Below, one piece after another: positions 43,868-50,609 of a DNA stretch of 64,000 nt. Made by a program: the position numbers and the translations under genes. Position 1 is the stretch's first letter. Each line of letters opens with the position of its first letter. The notes beneath the pieces were generated by a model, which worked only from the letters and a program-made list of their open reading frames with translations, had not been told where the DNA came from and made no database searches. The stretch spans positions 8,880,774 to 8,944,773 of the forward strand of contig NZ_CP059572.1 of assembly GCF_019175365.1 (NCBI RefSeq), read 5' to 3'. The DNA comes from Actinomadura graeca (GTDB lineage Bacteria; Actinomycetota; Actinomycetes; Streptosporangiales; Streptosporangiaceae).

Positions 43868-44905
43868 GTGCCGACCGAGACCCCCTCCATCGAGGCGTTC
43901 ATCGACGCCCTGCCGAAAGCCGAGCTGCACGTCCACCTCGTGGGCTCGGCGTCCGTCCCGACCGTCCTGGAGCTCGCCCGCCGCCACCCCGGCGGCCCCG
44001 TCCCCGTGGACGAGCGCGAGCTGCGCGCCTTCTACGGGTTCCGTGACTTCCCGCACTTCGCCGAGGTCTACGAGTCGGTGTCCGCGCTCGTCCGGACCCC
44101 CGAGGACGTGGCGACCCTCGTGCTGGGCACCGCGCGTGACCTCGCCGCGCAGAACGTCCGCTACGTCGAGCTGACCGTCACCCCCTACACCCACCGGCGG
44201 GCCGGGATGCCGATGCCGGCGATCACCGAGGCGCTCGACCTGGCCGTCCGGGAGGCGCGGGCGCGGCACGGCGTCCGTGTCGCCTACATCTTCGACATCC
44301 CGGCGGAGTTCGGCGCCGAGGGCGCCCGCGGGACCCTCGACCACGCCCTCGCGCATCCGCCGGAGGCGCTGGTCGGGTTCGGGCTCGCGGGCATCGAGCA
44401 GTGCCGCCCGCCGCACCGCGACGTGTTCCGCGACGCGTTCGCCGCGGCGCGCGCCGCCGGGCTGCGCAGCCTCCCGCACGGCGGCGAGATGACCGGCCCC
44501 GAGACGATCTGGGAGGTCGTCGAGGGGCTCGGCGCCGAGCGGATCGGGCACGGCATCAGCTGCCTGGACGACCCGCGCCTCGTCGCCCACCTGCGCGAGA
44601 CCCAGATCCCGCTGGAGGTGTGCCCCACGTCCAACGTGTGCACCGGCCAGGTCGCCGGGCTGTCCGCGCACCCGCTGCCGCGGATGCTGGAGGAGGGGCT
44701 CTTCGTCACCCTCAACAGCGACGACCCGCCCATGTTCGACACGACGCTCACCGGCGAGTACCGCGTGGCCGCCGAGGTCTTCGGACTCGATCGCGCCGCG
44801 CTCGCCGCCCTCGCCCGCAACGCGGTGACGGCCTCGTCCCTGGACGGCCCGGACCGTCGGGCGATCATCGAGGAGATCGACGCCGTGGCGGCCGCGGCCG
44901 CCTAG
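43868..44905 (+). CDS. Adenosine deaminase family protein
   Basis: A 345-residue amidohydrolase starting at GTG 43868. The zinc ligands are in ELHVHLVGSAS (H21, H23) and in the LPHGGEMTG segment, which also holds the catalytic Glu. RIGHGISCLDD and TLNSDDPPMFDTTL provide the remaining His and Asp. It hydrolyses the 6-amino group of adenosine or a related base such as 6-amino-6-deoxyfutalosine in menaquinone synthesis; sequence alone does not settle which. No menaquinone gene is nearby. It overlaps the stop of the convergent DUF1266 gene by 4 bp. Confidence 0.87.
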   Translation: MPTETPSIEAFIDALPKAELHVHLVGSASVPTVLELARRHPGGPVPVDERELRAFYGFRDFPHFAEVYESVSALVRTPEDVATLVLGTARDLAAQNVRYVELTVTPYTHRRAGMPMPAITEALDLAVREARARHGVRVAYIFDIPAEFGAEGARGTLDHALAHPPEALVGFGLAGIEQCRPPHRDVFRDAFAAARAAGLRSLPHGGEMTGPETIWEVVEGLGAERIGHGISCLDDPRLVAHLRETQIPLEVCPTSNVCTGQVAGLSAHPLPRMLEEGLFVTLNSDDPPMFDTTLTGEYRVAAEVFGLDRAALAALARNAVTASSLDGPDRRAIIEEIDAVAAAAA

Positions 44906-46134
44906 CCCCAGGTCATGCGGCGCCAAGGGCTGGACGGGTCGCCGGCGAGGATCCGGTGGCCGGTGAGGGAGCGCTCGTACCACTCGCCGAACTCGCCGTC
45001 GTCGAAGCGGAGCATCCGGCCGAGGACGTACCCGGCGGAGAACGACTCCCACGAGGGATAGACCTGGTGGGCGCGGTGACCGGCCGTCAGCACGCACTTC
45101 TCGGCCTCCTCCGCGTCGCAGTGGCCGGCGTTCAGGCCCCAGCGGGCCATGTTCACCGCGCGCCCGAAGTCGTAGCCGTAGACGCTCTTGACCACGCCGT
45201 CCGGGGGGAGCAGGCCGTCGGCGCGGAACCGCGACTCGTACCGCAGGATGGTCTCCGACAGCGCGGTGACCTCGCGGACGGTCTCCTCGGAGACGTCGCG
45301 CTCGCGGCACCACCCGGCGATCGCCTCGCGCCAGACGCGGGGACCTGTGCCGCGGCCGCGCCGGTCGAGGACCATCTGGATGGCGGGATCGCAGTTGCGG
45401 GCCTCCAGCAGCCGGTCCATCGCCTCGCGCCAGCTCGCGGGGTCGGTGATGCCCCAGTCGCGTTCGAGGAGGGTCCGGTCGTCGCCGTCGTGGGCGAGGG
45501 TGTTCCAGGCGACGCTGTTCCCGACGGCCAGGTGCGCGCCGACCGCGAGCGCCGCCGCGAGGCGCCCCCACGGGGCGCCGCCGGGGTCGGTGACGAGGAT
45601 GTCGTGGTCGCGGTCGGGGCGCCGCTCGGCGTCGGCGAGCATCTCCGAAACCCGCCGGAACCCGTCGCCGCCCTGCGGCATCTGCGCCAGCAGCTCGCGC
45701 AGCGGCCGCAGCGCCCCGCGCGGCCCCGCGTCCTCGACGATGAGACGGGCCGCGTGGACGCCCGCGGTCTCGGCGCGCCGGTGGTCGTGCAGCGAGCCGT
45801 ACCCGGTCATCGCGGCCCAGGCGCGGCGGGCCGCCTCACCGGTCCGTCCCGCGGCGGCCAGCACGTGGGCGGCCTGGGCGTCCAGCCCCGCGCGGACCTC
45901 GCCGGGCATCGACGCGGCGGCCCGCTCGGCGGTGTCGAGGACGCGCTGCGCCGCGCCGGTGTCCCCGGCGTCGGCGAGCGCGCGGGCGTGCCGGGCGCGC
46001 ACCGCGACCGCGGACGGCCAGTCGCCGTGCGCCTCCATCCGCGCGGCGGCGTCGGCGTAGACGGCGGCGGCCTGCCCGGGCCGCCCCTGCCGCTCGAACT
46101 TCCTGGCCCGGTCGAGCATGGCCTGCAACGTCAT
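44902..46134 (-). CDS. TPR-like repeat protein with C-terminal DUF1266 domain
   Basis: A 410-residue cytoplasmic protein. The first 170 residues are Ala-rich helical repeats of TPR type (FERQGRPGQAAAVYADAAARM, HARALADAGDTGAAQRVLD, HVLAAAGRTGEAARRAW). The C-terminal 230 residues match DUF1266 (ERDWGITDPASWREAMDRLLE, YDFGRAVNMARWGLNAGHCDAEEA). The function of DUF1266 is unknown. It is convergent with the adenosine deaminase and downstream of the beta-helix gene. Confidence 0.8.
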   Translation of the reverse strand: MTLQAMLDRARKFERQGRPGQAAAVYADAAARMEAHGDWPSAVAVRARHARALADAGDTGAAQRVLDTAERAAASMPGEVRAGLDAQAAHVLAAAGRTGEAARRAWAAMTGYGSLHDHRRAETAGVHAARLIVEDAGPRGALRPLRELLAQMPQGGDGFRRVSEMLADAERRPDRDHDILVTDPGGAPWGRLAAALAVGAHLAVGNSVAWNTLAHDGDDRTLLERDWGITDPASWREAMDRLLEARNCDPAIQMVLDRRGRGTGPRVWREAIAGWCRERDVSEETVREVTALSETILRYESRFRADGLLPPDGVVKSVYGYDFGRAVNMARWGLNAGHCDAEEAEKCVLTAGHRAHQVYPSWESFSAGYVLGRMLRFDDGEFGEWYERSLTGHRILAGDPSSPWRRMTWG

Positions 46135-46219: not shown

Positions 46220-47281
46220 TCAGCCGGCCGTCACGGTCAGGTCGGAGTCGACGAAGAACTCCTTCGCGGGCACCGAGCGCGCGCGGACGATCAGCGGGGT
46301 GCCGGATGCCTGGTGGTCGCGCACCCGGATGTTCGAGCCCTTGGCCACGTACAGGTCCGGCGTGCCCTTGGGGGTGGAGGTCCTCTGGCCCCCGTCGCCG
46401 TCGGAGAACATGCAGCCGTCGAACACGACGTCGGAGCCGCCGGTCATGGTGACGATGCCCCGGTGGTGCTCGCGGTCCGGGTGGCCGGTGTCGCCGGGGC
46501 GGGCCATGCCGTTGAAGAAGAACACGTCCCGGATCCGCAGGAACGTGCCGCCGGTGATGATCAGCTGGCTGCCCCACGTGGGGTTGCCCTGCTGGGCCTC
46601 CAGCCGCGCCCCGGACACGATCAGGCCCCGCCCTCCGTCGATCCGCATCGGGGTGACGTTCTCCTGCCCGGTGACGAACACCGGCCCGACATTGCTCTTG
46701 CTCACGTTCGGCAGCCAGATGTGGTACCGCTGCCCCTTGGGGTGGTTGGGGGAGTCCAGGAGCATCCCGTCCGGCCAGTAGTTGTTGTCGGATCCCCAGA
46801 GCTTGAACTCGGTGTCGTAGCAGTTGTTGACGTCCCAGTACCCGGACAGGGTCACGGCTGTGTGGGGCCCCCAGATGACGTGCTTGAACAGCGAGAACCC
46901 GAGGTTCTCCAGATGGGACGCCCACAGCACCGTCTGGGTGTGGGTCTTGTCGACGAAGAAGCTCGTCTCGGCGTTGCCCTCGAACGACAGATTCTTGATC
47001 GAGATGCCTTTGAGCTGGCCGCCGGTCATGTCCAGCCAGCCCGAGCCGGGCACGTTCACCTTGACCTTGCCGTTGTAGCGGAACTCGCTGCCGGAGACCT
47101 GCGGCCCGGCGAGGGCGAACCCGTTGAACATCGTCCGCCGCTTGCCGAAGGAGTACTGCCGGTGCTGGGCGAGCAGGATGACGGGCTTGTAGGTCTGGGC
47201 CGCGGCGTACGACAGGGCGGCGGTCAGCCGCTCGTCGTCATTGGCGCCGTCGAACTTCTCCAGGGCGACCGAGTTGACCAC
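46220..47281 (-). CDS. Beta-helix (pectate-lyase-superfamily-like) protein without signal peptide
   Basis: A 353-residue protein; GTG 47281 is preceded by GGAAGGAG at ideal distance. The start VALEKFDGANDDERLTAALSYAA is the lead-in of phage tail-spike and pectate-lyase-3-type right-handed beta-helices (family normally xxxFGAxGDGxxDDTxAxxxA). The rest is short repeated strands rich in Gly, Asn and Asp (LKGISIKNLSFEGN, RGLIVSGARLEAQQGN, VFDGCMFSDGDGG). No signal peptide, membrane helix or catalytic carbohydrate-lyase motif is evident. It could be exported by another route, be phage-derived or act inside the cell. Confidence 0.7.
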   Translation of the reverse strand: MVNSVALEKFDGANDDERLTAALSYAAAQTYKPVILLAQHRQYSFGKRRTMFNGFALAGPQVSGSEFRYNGKVKVNVPGSGWLDMTGGQLKGISIKNLSFEGNAETSFFVDKTHTQTVLWASHLENLGFSLFKHVIWGPHTAVTLSGYWDVNNCYDTEFKLWGSDNNYWPDGMLLDSPNHPKGQRYHIWLPNVSKSNVGPVFVTGQENVTPMRIDGGRGLIVSGARLEAQQGNPTWGSQLIITGGTFLRIRDVFFFNGMARPGDTGHPDREHHRGIVTMTGGSDVVFDGCMFSDGDGGQRTSTPKGTPDLYVAKGSNIRVRDHQASGTPLIVRARSVPAKEFFVDSDLTVTAG

Positions 47282-47459: not shown

Positions 47460-48107
47460 TCACCCCCGTGGGAGATAGACCTCGACCATCCCGTTGACCT
47501 GGCGGACGGCCAGGCGCGGCAGCGCGGGGATCGGCGCCTTGAGGCGGTGCTGCAGCACGGCGCCGTCGAGGGCGAACAGCGCGCCGTGGCAGGGGCAGCG
47601 CAGCCGCGTGCCGGCGTGCACGGTCAGGCGGCAGCCCTGGTGGGTGCACACGCCGGACACGGCGCGCAGCCGGCCGCCGGAGCGGGTCACGAAGCCGTCG
47701 ACGCCGCCGGCCGCGAACCCGTGGACGGCGCCCTCGGGGAGGGCGGCGGCGGCCGCGACCGGATGCCAGACGCCGAGGTCGGGGGTGAGCGGGCCGCCGC
47801 CAGGGCCGGGCCGGGCGCCGATCCTCGCGTGCTCGGCGATCACTCCGGCGGCGGCTCCCGCCGCGCCCACGGCGCCCCCGGCGAGCAGAAACCGGCGCAC
47901 CGGCGCCCGCGGGGGCTCGCCCTGGTCGCGGGCCAGGCGCCGTTGCAGCCCGGTGATGAACTCCTCGCGGGGCGCGTTCGAGCCGGGGCGGGCCGCACGC
48001 AGCTCGATGGCCACGCGCAGCGCTTCCGCGTCGGCGTCGTCGGCCGGGAACGGCCGGGGCCGCCTGCCCGACAGCAGCGCTTCGACGAAGCGGGACAGTC
48101 CCTTCAT
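47460..48107 (-). CDS. Rieske [2Fe-2S] membrane protein with anti-sigma-like N-terminus
   Basis: A 215-residue protein starting at ATG 48107 (GTG 48113 possible). Residues 1-75 are a charged helical cytoplasmic-looking region (LSRFVEALLSGRRPRPFPADD, PREEFITGLQRRLARDQ). A single hydrophobic segment follows, preceded by twin arginines (RRFLLAGGAVGAAGAAAGVIA), which suggests Tat export. The C-terminal 100 residues form a Rieske domain with CTHQGC and CPCHGALF, the two Cys-His pairs binding the [2Fe-2S] cluster. It starts 10 bp after the ECF sigma gene. That position and topology are those of an anti-sigma factor, so a redox-sensing role is inferred; a plain electron carrier is the alternative. 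Confidence 0.85.
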   Translation of the reverse strand: MKGLSRFVEALLSGRRPRPFPADDADAEALRVAIELRAARPGSNAPREEFITGLQRRLARDQGEPPRAPVRRFLLAGGAVGAAGAAAGVIAEHARIGARPGPGGGPLTPDLGVWHPVAAAAALPEGAVHGFAAGGVDGFVTRSGGRLRAVSGVCTHQGCRLTVHAGTRLRCPCHGALFALDGAVLQHRLKAPIPALPRLAVRQVNGMVEVYLPRG

Positions 48108-48117
48108 GGTCACCTGC

Positions 48118-48711
48118 TCATCCCTGGAGGTGCGGGTCGTCACGGGCCAGCTCGGCCGCGAGCCGTAACGCGCGATGCTGGAGGACCTTGACGTTGCCGA
48201 CGCTGGTCCCGAGCTCGGCCGCGGTCTGCCGGATCGAGCAGGCCTGCAGGAACCGCAGCTCCAGGACCCGACGGTAGCGCTCGGGCAGCGCGGCCAGCAG
48301 CCGCTCGGCCCGCCCCGTGGAGCCGGCGGACCCGGGGGGCGGGGGGCCGTCGTCGGCGGCGACCTGTTCCAGGTCGATGGCGGTGATCTCGCGTCCGAGC
48401 GTGCGCCGCCAGTGCGCGGCCAGCACGGTGCGGGCGGTGGCGAGCAGGTAGGCGCGGACCTCGCCGACCGTCGCCGACACCCGCAGCGGCCGCAGCGCGG
48501 TCAGGAACACCTCGGCGGTCAGATCCTCGGCGTCGGGCCGGTTGCCGACTCTGGCGTACATCAGCCGGTAGATCCGGTCGACGTTGTGCAGGTAGATGGC
48601 CTCCCAGTTCGCATACGTGTCGCCCTGGACGAGGTGCAGCGGCGCGCGAGGCCGCGACTCCCGTCCCGCCGGTTCGGCGGGTTTGCGTCGGGCTGGGTTC
48701 CAGCGGCGCAT
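48118..48711 (-). CDS. ECF RNA polymerase sigma factor
   Basis: A 197-residue sigma factor. ATG 48711 is preceded by GGAAAGGA at good spacing; the open frame continues upstream without one. Region 2 is IYRLMYARVGNRPDAEDLTAEVFLTALRPL, and region 4 is LLAALPERYRRVLELRFLQACSIRQTAAELGTSVGNVKVLQHRALRLAAEL. It lies between the haloperoxidase-like gene (50 bp upstream) and the Rieske gene (10 bp downstream), all leftward. The first 35 residues are basic and non-conserved. Confidence 0.92.
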   Translation of the reverse strand: MRRWNPARRKPAEPAGRESRPRAPLHLVQGDTYANWEAIYLHNVDRIYRLMYARVGNRPDAEDLTAEVFLTALRPLRVSATVGEVRAYLLATARTVLAAHWRRTLGREITAIDLEQVAADDGPPPPGSAGSTGRAERLLAALPERYRRVLELRFLQACSIRQTAAELGTSVGNVKVLQHRALRLAAELARDDPHLQG

Positions 48712-48761
48712 GACGGTCCTTTCCGCCGTTTCCTGGAGCACGTCCCTCCGGGCCCGGAGGC

Positions 48762-50021
48762 TCACCCGCCCGTCCGGGACGGGCGGAGTGCCCGGCCGAG
48801 CTCGTACCGGGCGATCCGCCGCCCGAGGACCTGCCCGGCGGTGTGATCGAGACGGGTGTGGACGCCCGCGTAGATGCGGCTGAGCCCGGCCTCGTCCGCC
48901 GCGTCCTGGTAGCGCTCGAACGAGCGGGTGACGCCCGGCAGCGCCTCCGAGCCCACGGTGAAGCGGTCCGCGGGACCGAAGAAGGCGGCCAGCACGGTCG
49001 CCCCGGCCTCGCCCACGACGCTGTGCGCGCCCGGGTAGGACGGGTCGGGCGGCGTCACCGCGAGCGGCTGCCAGTCCGGATCGGCGCGGGTCGCGGGGTT
49101 GCCGTCGGTGCCGGCGGCGCGGATCGCGGTGACGGGCCGCCAGATCGCGTGGTGGTACTTGCCGTCATAGAGCGCGATCACCGAGTCGGCGAGCGTCCGG
49201 TCGAGCACCGCGAACATCCGGGCGGTCGCGGCGAGGCCGGTCCCGTGCCGGCGGGCGGCGTCCTGGGCGATCTCGTTCCAGTGGTTCCAGATCGGCGCGG
49301 CCCAGAACCGCGCCTGCGTCGTCTGGTCCGCCGTCCGCTCGGTGCTGGTGTCGCGGCCCAGGGCCTGTACCTCGCCGAGCGCCCCGGCGTACTCCTTGCC
49401 GCCCAGCCGCGGGTACGGCGGCGGCCGGAACCGGTCACCGCGCCCCAGCGCGAACGGCCGCACCGCGGCCCAGTGGGTGAACACGGGCGCGGCGAACGCC
49501 GGTGGCGTGGGCCGGTAGCCGCCCGGCCCGCCGGACGGCACGAACGGCGGCGGGGTGACCTCCGACCCGTCGTGCGCCCGGTCGGCGAGCACGGCCCCGG
49601 CGGCGGCGCGCCCGGCGCGGACGCCCGCGTCCTCGGAGGGCCCGTCCGGCACGTCCGCGAGCTCGCCGGCGAGCTGCCGGTCCAGCTCGGCCGCCCGCGC
49701 CGGGTACAGCGCCGCCAGGGTGTCGTGCCCGGCCTGTGCCGCCGCCGCGTACGCGGAGCCCTTCCCCGCGTCGGCGACGGCGTCGGCGATGGCCGTGTGC
49801 ATGATCGCGAAGTTGCGCGTGGGATGCACGGCCGCCGGCTGCGCCCCGGGCGTCCGGACGATCCCGAGCAGGGTCCGGTTCCAGGCGGCCACCAGGTCCC
49901 GGCCCGCCGCGTCCCGCGTCGCCGGAGGTGTGCCGGCCCCCGCGGGCCCGATCCGCGACCCGAGCGCCACACCCGCCGACAACGCGGCCCCCACGGCCAT
50001 GACGGCCATCGCTCTCCCCAT
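48762..50021 (-). CDS. Vanadium-dependent haloperoxidase-like (PAP2 superfamily) exported protein
   Basis: A 419-residue protein with an N-terminal hydrophobic export signal (AMAVMAVGAALSAGVALGS). The vanadate/phosphate pocket motifs are present: YHHAIWRPVTAIR (Lys/Arg region), PDPSYPGAHSVVGEAGATVL (Ser-Gly-His) and GVHTRLDHTAGQVLG (terminal Arg and His). The family comprises vanadium haloperoxidases and related acid phosphatases; the catalytic type cannot be decided here. It is the first gene of the operon with the ECF sigma and Rieske genes. The divergent secreted-protein gene at 50145 shares its promoter region, which contains an inverted repeat. Confidence 0.87.
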   Translation of the reverse strand: MGRAMAVMAVGAALSAGVALGSRIGPAGAGTPPATRDAAGRDLVAAWNRTLLGIVRTPGAQPAAVHPTRNFAIMHTAIADAVADAGKGSAYAAAAQAGHDTLAALYPARAAELDRQLAGELADVPDGPSEDAGVRAGRAAAGAVLADRAHDGSEVTPPPFVPSGGPGGYRPTPPAFAAPVFTHWAAVRPFALGRGDRFRPPPYPRLGGKEYAGALGEVQALGRDTSTERTADQTTQARFWAAPIWNHWNEIAQDAARRHGTGLAATARMFAVLDRTLADSVIALYDGKYHHAIWRPVTAIRAAGTDGNPATRADPDWQPLAVTPPDPSYPGAHSVVGEAGATVLAAFFGPADRFTVGSEALPGVTRSFERYQDAADEAGLSRIYAGVHTRLDHTAGQVLGRRIARYELGRALRPSRTGG

Positions 50022-50067
50022 CTCCCCGTCCCTTCTCCGCCGGCGTGTCGCCGAGGAATAGGCGGCC

Positions 50068-50094
50068 GGGTTACACGCGGCGGGAGCGTAACCC
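50068..50094. promoter_or_regulatory. Inverted repeat between divergent haloperoxidase-like and secreted-protein genes
   Basis: GGGTTAC (50068-50074) and GTAACCC (50088-50094) are perfect 7-bp arms 13 bp apart. The repeat is 46 bp from the haloperoxidase-like start and 50 bp from ATG 50145, so one factor could control both. Confidence 0.5.
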
Positions 50095-50144
50095 CCTCGC
50101 CTATCAACCGAAGGAGTGACACCCGACCGAAAAGGAGAGACCGG

Positions 50145-50609
50145 ATGCGAACGCGACCGATGGCAGGGCTGCTGGCCGCCGCGGCGCTGGCCCTGGCGAC
50201 CGCCGTGGCCACGGGCGGCGCCGCCCAAGCGAAGGAGCGTCCGTGCGGGCGCCCGGTCGAGACCAGCGGGGTGGGGACGCAGGGCACCCCCTGGACCCTC
50301 AAGTCGCAGTACGACGACGACGGCGTGCCGCCGAACCGGCTCGTCGCCGGGGAGGAGTTCGAGATCGACACCGGGGTGGCCGGCCAGCACTGGTCGGTCG
50401 TCTTCACCGACAACGGCACGGAGTTCTTCCGCAACGACGACGACGTCTCGACCGCGACCGGGATCAGGGAGGTCCACCCGAACCCGGTCGGCAGGGGGAA
50501 CACGAACCACATGGCCGTGCACGCGGTGCGCCACGACGCCGGCGGCAATGTGATCGAGGTCATCGACGGCGCCGTCGACCTGCCCGCGCCGCCGCCCCGC
50601 TGCGGCTGA
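50145..50609 (+). CDS. Small secreted hypothetical protein
   Basis: A 154-residue protein; ATG 50145 follows AAAGGAGAGA. A clear signal peptide (MAGLLAAAALALATAVATGGAAQA, from residue 6) leaves a mature domain of about 120 residues with two cysteines, one near each end (ERPCGRPVETSG and PPPRCG). The core is acidic (FEIDTGVAGQHWSVVFTDNG, FFRNDDDVSTATGIREV, NHMAVHAV). No family is recognised; a small disulfide-linked beta fold is likely. It is divergent from the haloperoxidase-like gene. Confidence 0.75.
   Translation: MRTRPMAGLLAAAALALATAVATGGAAQAKERPCGRPVETSGVGTQGTPWTLKSQYDDDGVPPNRLVAGEEFEIDTGVAGQHWSVVFTDNGTEFFRNDDDVSTATGIREVHPNPVGRGNTNHMAVHAVRHDAGGNVIEVIDGAVDLPAPPPRCG

Follow-up and report, generated by a model that had tools for sequence, protein, structure and literature searches.

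We analysed a window of 64,000 nucleotides (nt) of Actinomadura graeca (GCF_019175365.1, NZ_CP059572.1:8,880,774-8,944,773, forward strand), in which a gene for an extracytoplasmic function (ECF) sigma factor is followed by a gene for a Rieske protein. A first-pass annotation had suggested that the Rieske protein acts as an anti-sigma factor in the membrane and has an iron-sulfur domain for sensing. On the minus strand the gene order is haloperoxidase-like protein, ECF sigma factor, Rieske protein, and a small secreted-type protein is encoded divergently on the plus strand. The features of the locus are given below (aa, amino acids; Tat, twin-arginine translocation; positions are those of the window).

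47460..48107 (-): Rieske protein, 215 aa; ATG at 48107, stop at 47460
Rieske residues 1-65: cytoplasmic-type domain, three helices predicted
Rieske residues R71-R72 and hydrophobic 73-91: Tat-type membrane segment, mildly hydrophobic
Rieske residues 112-213: outside-type [2Fe-2S] Rieske domain
48118..48711 (-): ECF sigma factor, 197 aa; regions 2 and 4
48762..50021 (-): vanadium-haloperoxidase-like/PAP2 protein, 419 aa; ATG at 50021; first gene of the operon
50058..50074 (-): promoter-like motif GTAACC-N7-CTAT (TGTAACC), directed at the haloperoxidase-sigma-Rieske operon
50088..50104 (+): second, divergent copy of the motif (CGTAACC), directed at the secreted-protein gene
50145..50609 (+): small protein, 154 aa; signal-peptide-like N-terminus; presumed divergent target

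The gene coordinates of the first-pass annotation needed small corrections only. Its operon, headed by the haloperoxidase-like gene and divergent from the small secreted-type protein, was borne out, as was its sigma gene 10 bp before the Rieske gene (10 nt from the sigma stop at 48118 to the Rieske ATG at 48107). The sigma start is most likely the ATG at 48711, with an upstream GTG at 48765 possible. The 154-aa protein at 50145..50609 gave no significant Pfam family.

To place the Rieske protein among its relatives, we used several genome samples. A one-genome-per-species scan gave 535 matched stretches, 438 of which encode relatives, and the best 80 were kept. Whole-genome samples at E <= 1e-20 yielded hits in 27/394 genomes of the class, 25/351 of one family, 14/35 of another family, 2/5 of one order and 4/296 of the phylum; there is overlap among these samples, and the window's own genome is in some of them. 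All 297 genomes in a set from the window's order matched at E <= 0.001, with eleven matches, the window's included, better than 1e-60. Given these hit rates, the distribution of the Rieske family is sparse but broad; we found it in Actinomadura, Actinoallomurus, Planotetraspora, Streptomyces, Nocardia, Mycobacterium, Pseudonocardia and others.

The first-pass annotation had suggested surveying sigma-Rieske adjacency across actinomycetes, and had named its lack of conservation as grounds for dropping the proposal. This condition did not refute the proposal, as adjacency is conserved in the relatives. Of 141 fetched loci, which include some places fetched twice, 134 carry a same-strand ECF sigma gene ahead of the Rieske gene. 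In four of the seven exceptions (L018, L099, L152, L153) a contig end cuts the locus, two (L019, L096) are copies of a single deletion, and in one (L154) the Rieske protein lacks the N-terminus. The sigma gene lay within 60 nt in 123/141 loci by a first estimate of the starts, and chosen start codons restored ten more (L021, L042, L050, L074, L136, L145, L149, L155, L172, L174); in L173 the two genes are truly separated. The 134 loci hold 120 distinct Rieske sequences; clustering at 70% identity gives 37 clusters, and at 62% identity 21. With chosen starts, the sigma-Rieske gap in these 120 distinct pairs was -4 nt in 101, -1 in 6, 1 in 1, 2 in 4, 8 in 1, 10 in 5, 14 in 1 and 457 in 1 (L173), and the two genes were in different frames in 87/87 loci compared. 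A reverse survey found a relative of the sigma (E <= 1e-30) in 9/148 genomes, all nine of them Rieske-positive with the genes adjacent. The window's genome has 17 Rieske-domain matches and 51 sigma matches, and only this Rieske gene is within 3.5 kilobases (kb) of any sigma. Because the sigma precedes the Rieske gene so regularly, and 1 of the 17 Rieske matches lies near a sigma, the pairing is not chance; it has the operon-like form of an anti-sigma gene beside its cognate sigma gene, with a 4-nt overlap in 101/120 pairs.

Single loci showed further variation. In L173, a 154-aa low-complexity open reading frame (ORF; L173:1031-1495) lies between the sigma and Rieske genes, with short overlaps with both. 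L178:1495-3599 encodes one sigma and then two different tandem Rieske proteins, both with the N-terminal domain, the second copy not being adjacent to the sigma. In P. phitsanulokensis (L019:5944-6549), the sigma and the first 35 Rieske codons are gone, and a frame-shifted-looking metallophosphoesterase ORF stands directly upstream of the shortened Rieske gene. This joint loss is suggestive, but we did not count it as independent evidence, since one deletion accounts for both parts.

The arrangement of an N-terminal domain, a membrane segment led by a twin arginine and a [2Fe-2S] domain was seen as first described, with an N-terminus of about 65-70 residues. PF00355 matched Rieske residues 114-195 with CTHQGC and CPCH intact, and these CxHxGC and CPCH ligand and disulfide motifs, in a Rieske fold, make the protein a [2Fe-2S] Rieske protein. 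CTHxGC and CPCH are kept in 119/120 distinct sequences, the one exception being cut by a contig end. Two arginines stand just before the mildly hydrophobic stretch in 118/120, which is, judged by motif, the sequence pattern of a Tat substrate; the Rieske domain would be exported by Tat. AlphaFold gave a confident Rieske domain and left residues 66-108, the linker and membrane part, unresolved, nearly all with a predicted local distance difference test (pLDDT) value <50. The closest folds are electron-transfer Rieske proteins. Against the Rieske subunits of cytochrome bc1/b6f, the window protein scored far below the NCBIfam cut-offs (TIGR01416, 23.4 against 97.4 bits; NF045928, 25.9 against 250; NF050121, 19.2 against 275), and it differs from both these subunits and PetC3-type Rieske proteins in having an extra conserved N-terminal domain.

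We consider it probable that the Rieske protein serves the adjacent ECF sigma as a membrane anti-sigma factor of Tat type, with its external cluster as the sensor of a small extracytoplasmic redox regulon. The first-pass proposal is supported in part: its geometry, the pairing and the shared regulatory element are strongly supported. The strongest alternative is an electron carrier that simply shares its regulation with the rest of its chain. The Rieske protein would then carry electrons outside and be a target of the sigma only, its N-terminus serving export, cluster insertion or another partner, and the sigma would control an extracytoplasmic redox chain of Rieske, cupredoxin, DoxX and haloperoxidase-like proteins. 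We judge this unlikely. The kept cluster ligands and the electron-transfer folds nearest to the protein do fit a carrier, as does a cupredoxin gene, which lies within 900 nt after the Rieske gene in 53/78 loci and ahead of the sigma in others. However, the cupredoxin, DoxX and haloperoxidase neighbours come and go, whereas the sigma is kept in 134/141 loci, mostly with the 4-nt overlap, and no other gene was seen kept beside the sigma as a possible anti-sigma factor.

The sigma is an ECF sigma factor by PF04542 (34.3 bits) and PF08281 (51.5 bits), each scoring over its Pfam threshold. Among NCBIfam families it matches BldN (TIGR02952) best, where its 73.9 bits leave it outside the subfamily (equivalog cut-off 206.45), and the solved structure closest to it in sequence is sigma-BldN (6dxo, E 5.9e-16). 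One of the closest known systems is sigma-BldN and RsbN of Streptomyces, a pair with a class III anti-sigma domain. In the part of PMC7406223 that describes it, a passage that swaps both names, this domain has three helices, two of them placed on region 4 of the sigma and the third on region 2 of a different molecule. Like RsbN, the Rieske protein appears as a membrane-anchored partner with a short N-terminus, and three helices are predicted there as three are described for RsbN. A difference is that the presumed RsbN, picked by its place behind a BldN that passes the family cut-off (L120), has DUF5667 and no Rieske domain.

Ahead of the operon, the inverted repeat noticed in the first-pass annotation has arms at 50058-50074 and 50088-50104 that are 82% complementary and 13 nt apart. 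The window and five Actinomadura relatives all conserve it, but as a single operator it did not stand. The distance between the arms differs among species, while each half keeps its internal spacing and direction, mostly as gTGTAACCc-N6-CTATc. We therefore rejected a classical operator as the principal reading, and the repeat is better read as two divergent copies of one promoter-like element.

To count this element across the family, we took the 400 nt before each sigma gene plus its first 30 nt, giving 118 regions. GTAAC occurred on the coding strand in 97/118 regions and on the other strand in 17/118; TGTAAC occurred in 89 against 7, and in 25/37 cluster representatives against 1.2 expected from shuffles. 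A looser pattern over 78 loci (918 kb, related sequences kept) gave 105 matches, against 3 for the reversed pattern. The CTAT box, at +13 to +16 from the G of GTAAC, is almost as conserved as the first box. The motif stands at the operon head in 34/37 representatives, four of them with the core hexamer only, and is absent from L026, L095 and L135. Its position follows operon structure: it precedes the sigma, DoxX-sigma-Rieske, cupredoxin-metallophosphoesterase-sigma-Rieske or haloperoxidase-sigma-Rieske genes, and in some loci a second copy lies between the Rieske and cupredoxin genes. Exact GTAACC-N7-CTAT had 23 matches in eight whole genomes; this locus accounts for 14, and the remaining 9 are about as many as a reversed control produced (10). 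The window's genome (8.98 megabases) has the exact motif exactly twice, both times at this locus, and Planotetraspora mira has just two exact matches, before a cupredoxin operon and the neighbouring haloperoxidase gene. A narrow sigma regulon under its own control would be expected to show such a distribution. The -35-like TGTAAC box resembles the -35 CGTAAC of the BldN promoter, given as CGTAAC-N16-CGTTGA in part of PMC2375139.

Co-occurrence, gene overlap and motif data would fit equally well an N-terminus that serves as a positive partner or membrane tether needed by the sigma, and not as its inhibitor. We hold this to be very improbable. By precedent an inhibitor would be likelier, since anti-sigma genes are typically beside their ECF gene or in one transcription unit with it, as stated in a portion of PMC8103513.

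Elsewhere, in two Actinomadura genomes (L231, L245), the motif precedes related genes whose products have signal-peptide-like N-termini and which are possible extra targets. In Actinoallomurus G1243 (L246/L249), two copies about 0.9 kb apart lie away from the main locus, near an ORF that by eye looks like a small TatA/B-type protein.

Among the variable neighbours, the haloperoxidase-like protein of the window scored 26.4 bits to PF01569, just below the cut-off of 27.2. It resembles the vanadium-dependent haloperoxidase 4cit/4usz, with 4cit as its best solved relative (E 3.3e-30). The vanadium haloperoxidase pocket is marked by the motifs K-x6-RP, PSGH and SR-x5-H, and PSGH also occurs in PAP2 phosphatases. 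K-x6-RP and SR-x5-H are present in the window protein, whereas PSGH has become PGAH, so that the pocket serine is replaced. Seven of the eight family ORFs have the same pattern (PGAH, PGTH or PGMH), and the eighth, L020, lacks all three motifs; the ORFs with this consistent change are in the window, L009-L012, L015, L019 and L059. Because the Ser-Gly of PSGH is altered to Gly-Ala, Gly-Thr or Gly-Met, haloperoxidase-like activity is uncertain.

The loci also differ in what accompanies the haloperoxidase-like gene. In Actinomadura L010 and L013, five consecutive genes encode haloperoxidase, cupredoxin, metallophosphoesterase, sigma and Rieske proteins; only the haloperoxidase, sigma and Rieske genes are present at the locus in the window, L009, L011 and L012. 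These layouts bear on a reading in which the Rieske protein is an anti-sigma factor with a double role: it would carry electrons with the cupredoxin, and the sigma would sense the redox state of the chain, or its assembly or export by Tat proofreading, rather than an oxidant. Besides L010 and L013, where cupredoxin and metallophosphoesterase sit between the haloperoxidase and sigma genes, the Tat-type anchor would suit this double role. So would the link between motif and cupredoxin: where the motif occurs within 450 nt after the Rieske gene, a cupredoxin follows within 900 nt in 32/36 loci, against 21/42 without the motif (Fisher P 2.5e-4, the loci not being independent). Yet no relative of the cupredoxin or the metallophosphoesterase was found within the 64-kb window or around the locus in L009, L011, L012 and L059, so a local cupredoxin partner is not universal, and we regard the double role as improbable, more so than a plain electron carrier.

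The proposed anti-sigma function turns on the N-terminus, which is conserved like the Rieske domain (mean column entropy 1.00 against 1.06, with 1.56 for the linker). A database search with residues 1-72 alone returned 14 proteins, 12 of them with the Rieske family and two that look like frame-shifted versions of the same protein; no other type of protein turned up with this conserved N-terminus, which speaks against an electron carrier. AlphaFold predicted helices at residues 2-12, 24-38 and 48-63, with block pLDDT values of 77-90 up to residue 60, and nearly the same helices when the N-terminus was folded alone (block pLDDT 56-86). Distances among the sigma factors track the N-terminus, given the Rieske domain, at a partial correlation of 0.71, and the Rieske domain, given the N-terminus, at 0.30; with phylogeny uncorrected, this comparison too points away from a carrier.

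Several results weigh against an anti-sigma factor and its regulon. The N-terminus has no detectable profile similarity to the presumed RsbN (hhalign <=0.2%), whose profile is narrow, with an effective number of sequences (Neff) of about 1.4-1.5. It also gave no match to Pfam anti-sigma families or to solved anti-sigma chains, and this lack of anti-sigma similarity in all three comparisons favours the electron carrier. Against 1810 ORFs of 48 other sigma-like loci, 41 of them from the same genome, its best non-self match had an E value of 0.32, and fold searches with the N-terminal model gave nothing significant. Amphipathy is significant in helix 1 only (P 0.006, against 0.90 and 0.34 for helices 2 and 3). 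Covariation with the sigma is weak: the N-terminus, with 28% of the columns, holds 7/20, 21/50, 33/100 and 69/200 of the top pairs, for a nominal P of 0.024 at the top 50 with Neff 51 and phylogeny uncorrected. At the motif, the CTAT box is placed 8 nt beyond TGTAAC, a distance unlike that between -35 and -10 boxes, and at the usual -10 distance there is just a weak G(T/C)G(A) box.

We did not rely on covariation as support, because effective sequences are too few and the strongest within-protein pairs are not obviously structural; co-evolution of sigma and Rieske protein is only suggestive. The only faint hint of kinship is that the non-significant best match among the 1810 ORFs sits after the genome's own BldN-like sigma. 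The ORF behind that BldN-like sigma (L121:1158-1568, minus strand) is short and unlike the DUF5667 protein that follows BldN in Streptomyces.

If the Rieske protein is the anti-sigma factor, its three-helix N-terminus (residues 1-65) would stay in the cytoplasm and sequester the sigma at the membrane, the twin-arginine-led segment would anchor the protein, and the [2Fe-2S] domain would be exported by Tat already folded. A change of the outside cluster, in oxidation state or by damage or loss, might then free the sigma, either directly or by way of anchor cleavage. Once free, the sigma would transcribe from GTAACC-N7-CTAT promoters. Its targets in the window would be the operon that encodes it, including the gene of the haloperoxidase-like enzyme, and the divergent gene of the secreted protein, and in other lineages cupredoxin and a Tat-type metallophosphoesterase, or DoxX. 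Release would thus feed back positively on the sigma and Rieske protein and lead to production of extracytoplasmic redox proteins. Redox sensing, and with it an oxidant response, is plausible because the cluster ligands are conserved and the likely targets include cupredoxin, DoxX and haloperoxidase-like proteins.

Zinc-binding (ZAS, class I) anti-sigma factors such as RsrA and RshA are redox-linked and have an HxxxCxxC motif in the N-terminal domain. Like them, the proposed system would couple an ECF sigma to redox conditions by way of a partner protein. The Rieske protein of the window lacks the motif, its residues 1-72 containing no Cys or His, and would carry its redox-active part on the far side of the membrane. 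Sigma factors with a membrane partner encoded downstream are a kind of system already known. No Rieske anti-sigma factor, and no Rieske domain described as such a sensor, was found in the open-access literature searched, the scope of which excluded the ECF re-classification and RsbN structure papers. Whether this is an undescribed anti-sigma class, in which a new three-helix domain would hold a BldN-like sigma and the redox state or integrity of a Tat-exported external Rieske cluster would gate a compact actinomycete regulon, we regard as evenly balanced.

ECF sigma/anti-sigma pairs are common, and for many of them the sensed signal is unknown. A Rieske sensor is a chemically defined, titratable group, and the predicted regulon has a specific motif, so signal, release and output would be directly testable. 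If true, the system would place an iron-sulfur sensor on the external side of the membrane and join a folded, probably Tat-exported, sensor domain to an anti-sigma factor.

Finally, we noted further genes in the neighbourhood of the Rieske genes. Downstream in L019, a haloperoxidase-like protein with Lipoprotein_15 repeats is encoded beside a DUF6529 membrane protein, near the Rieske and cupredoxin genes, and these may form an extracellular electron-transfer cluster. Downstream of the Rieske gene in the window, 46220-47281 (-) encodes an uncharacterised protein of 353 aa with no significant Pfam family, and 44902-46134 (-) encodes a DUF1266 protein.

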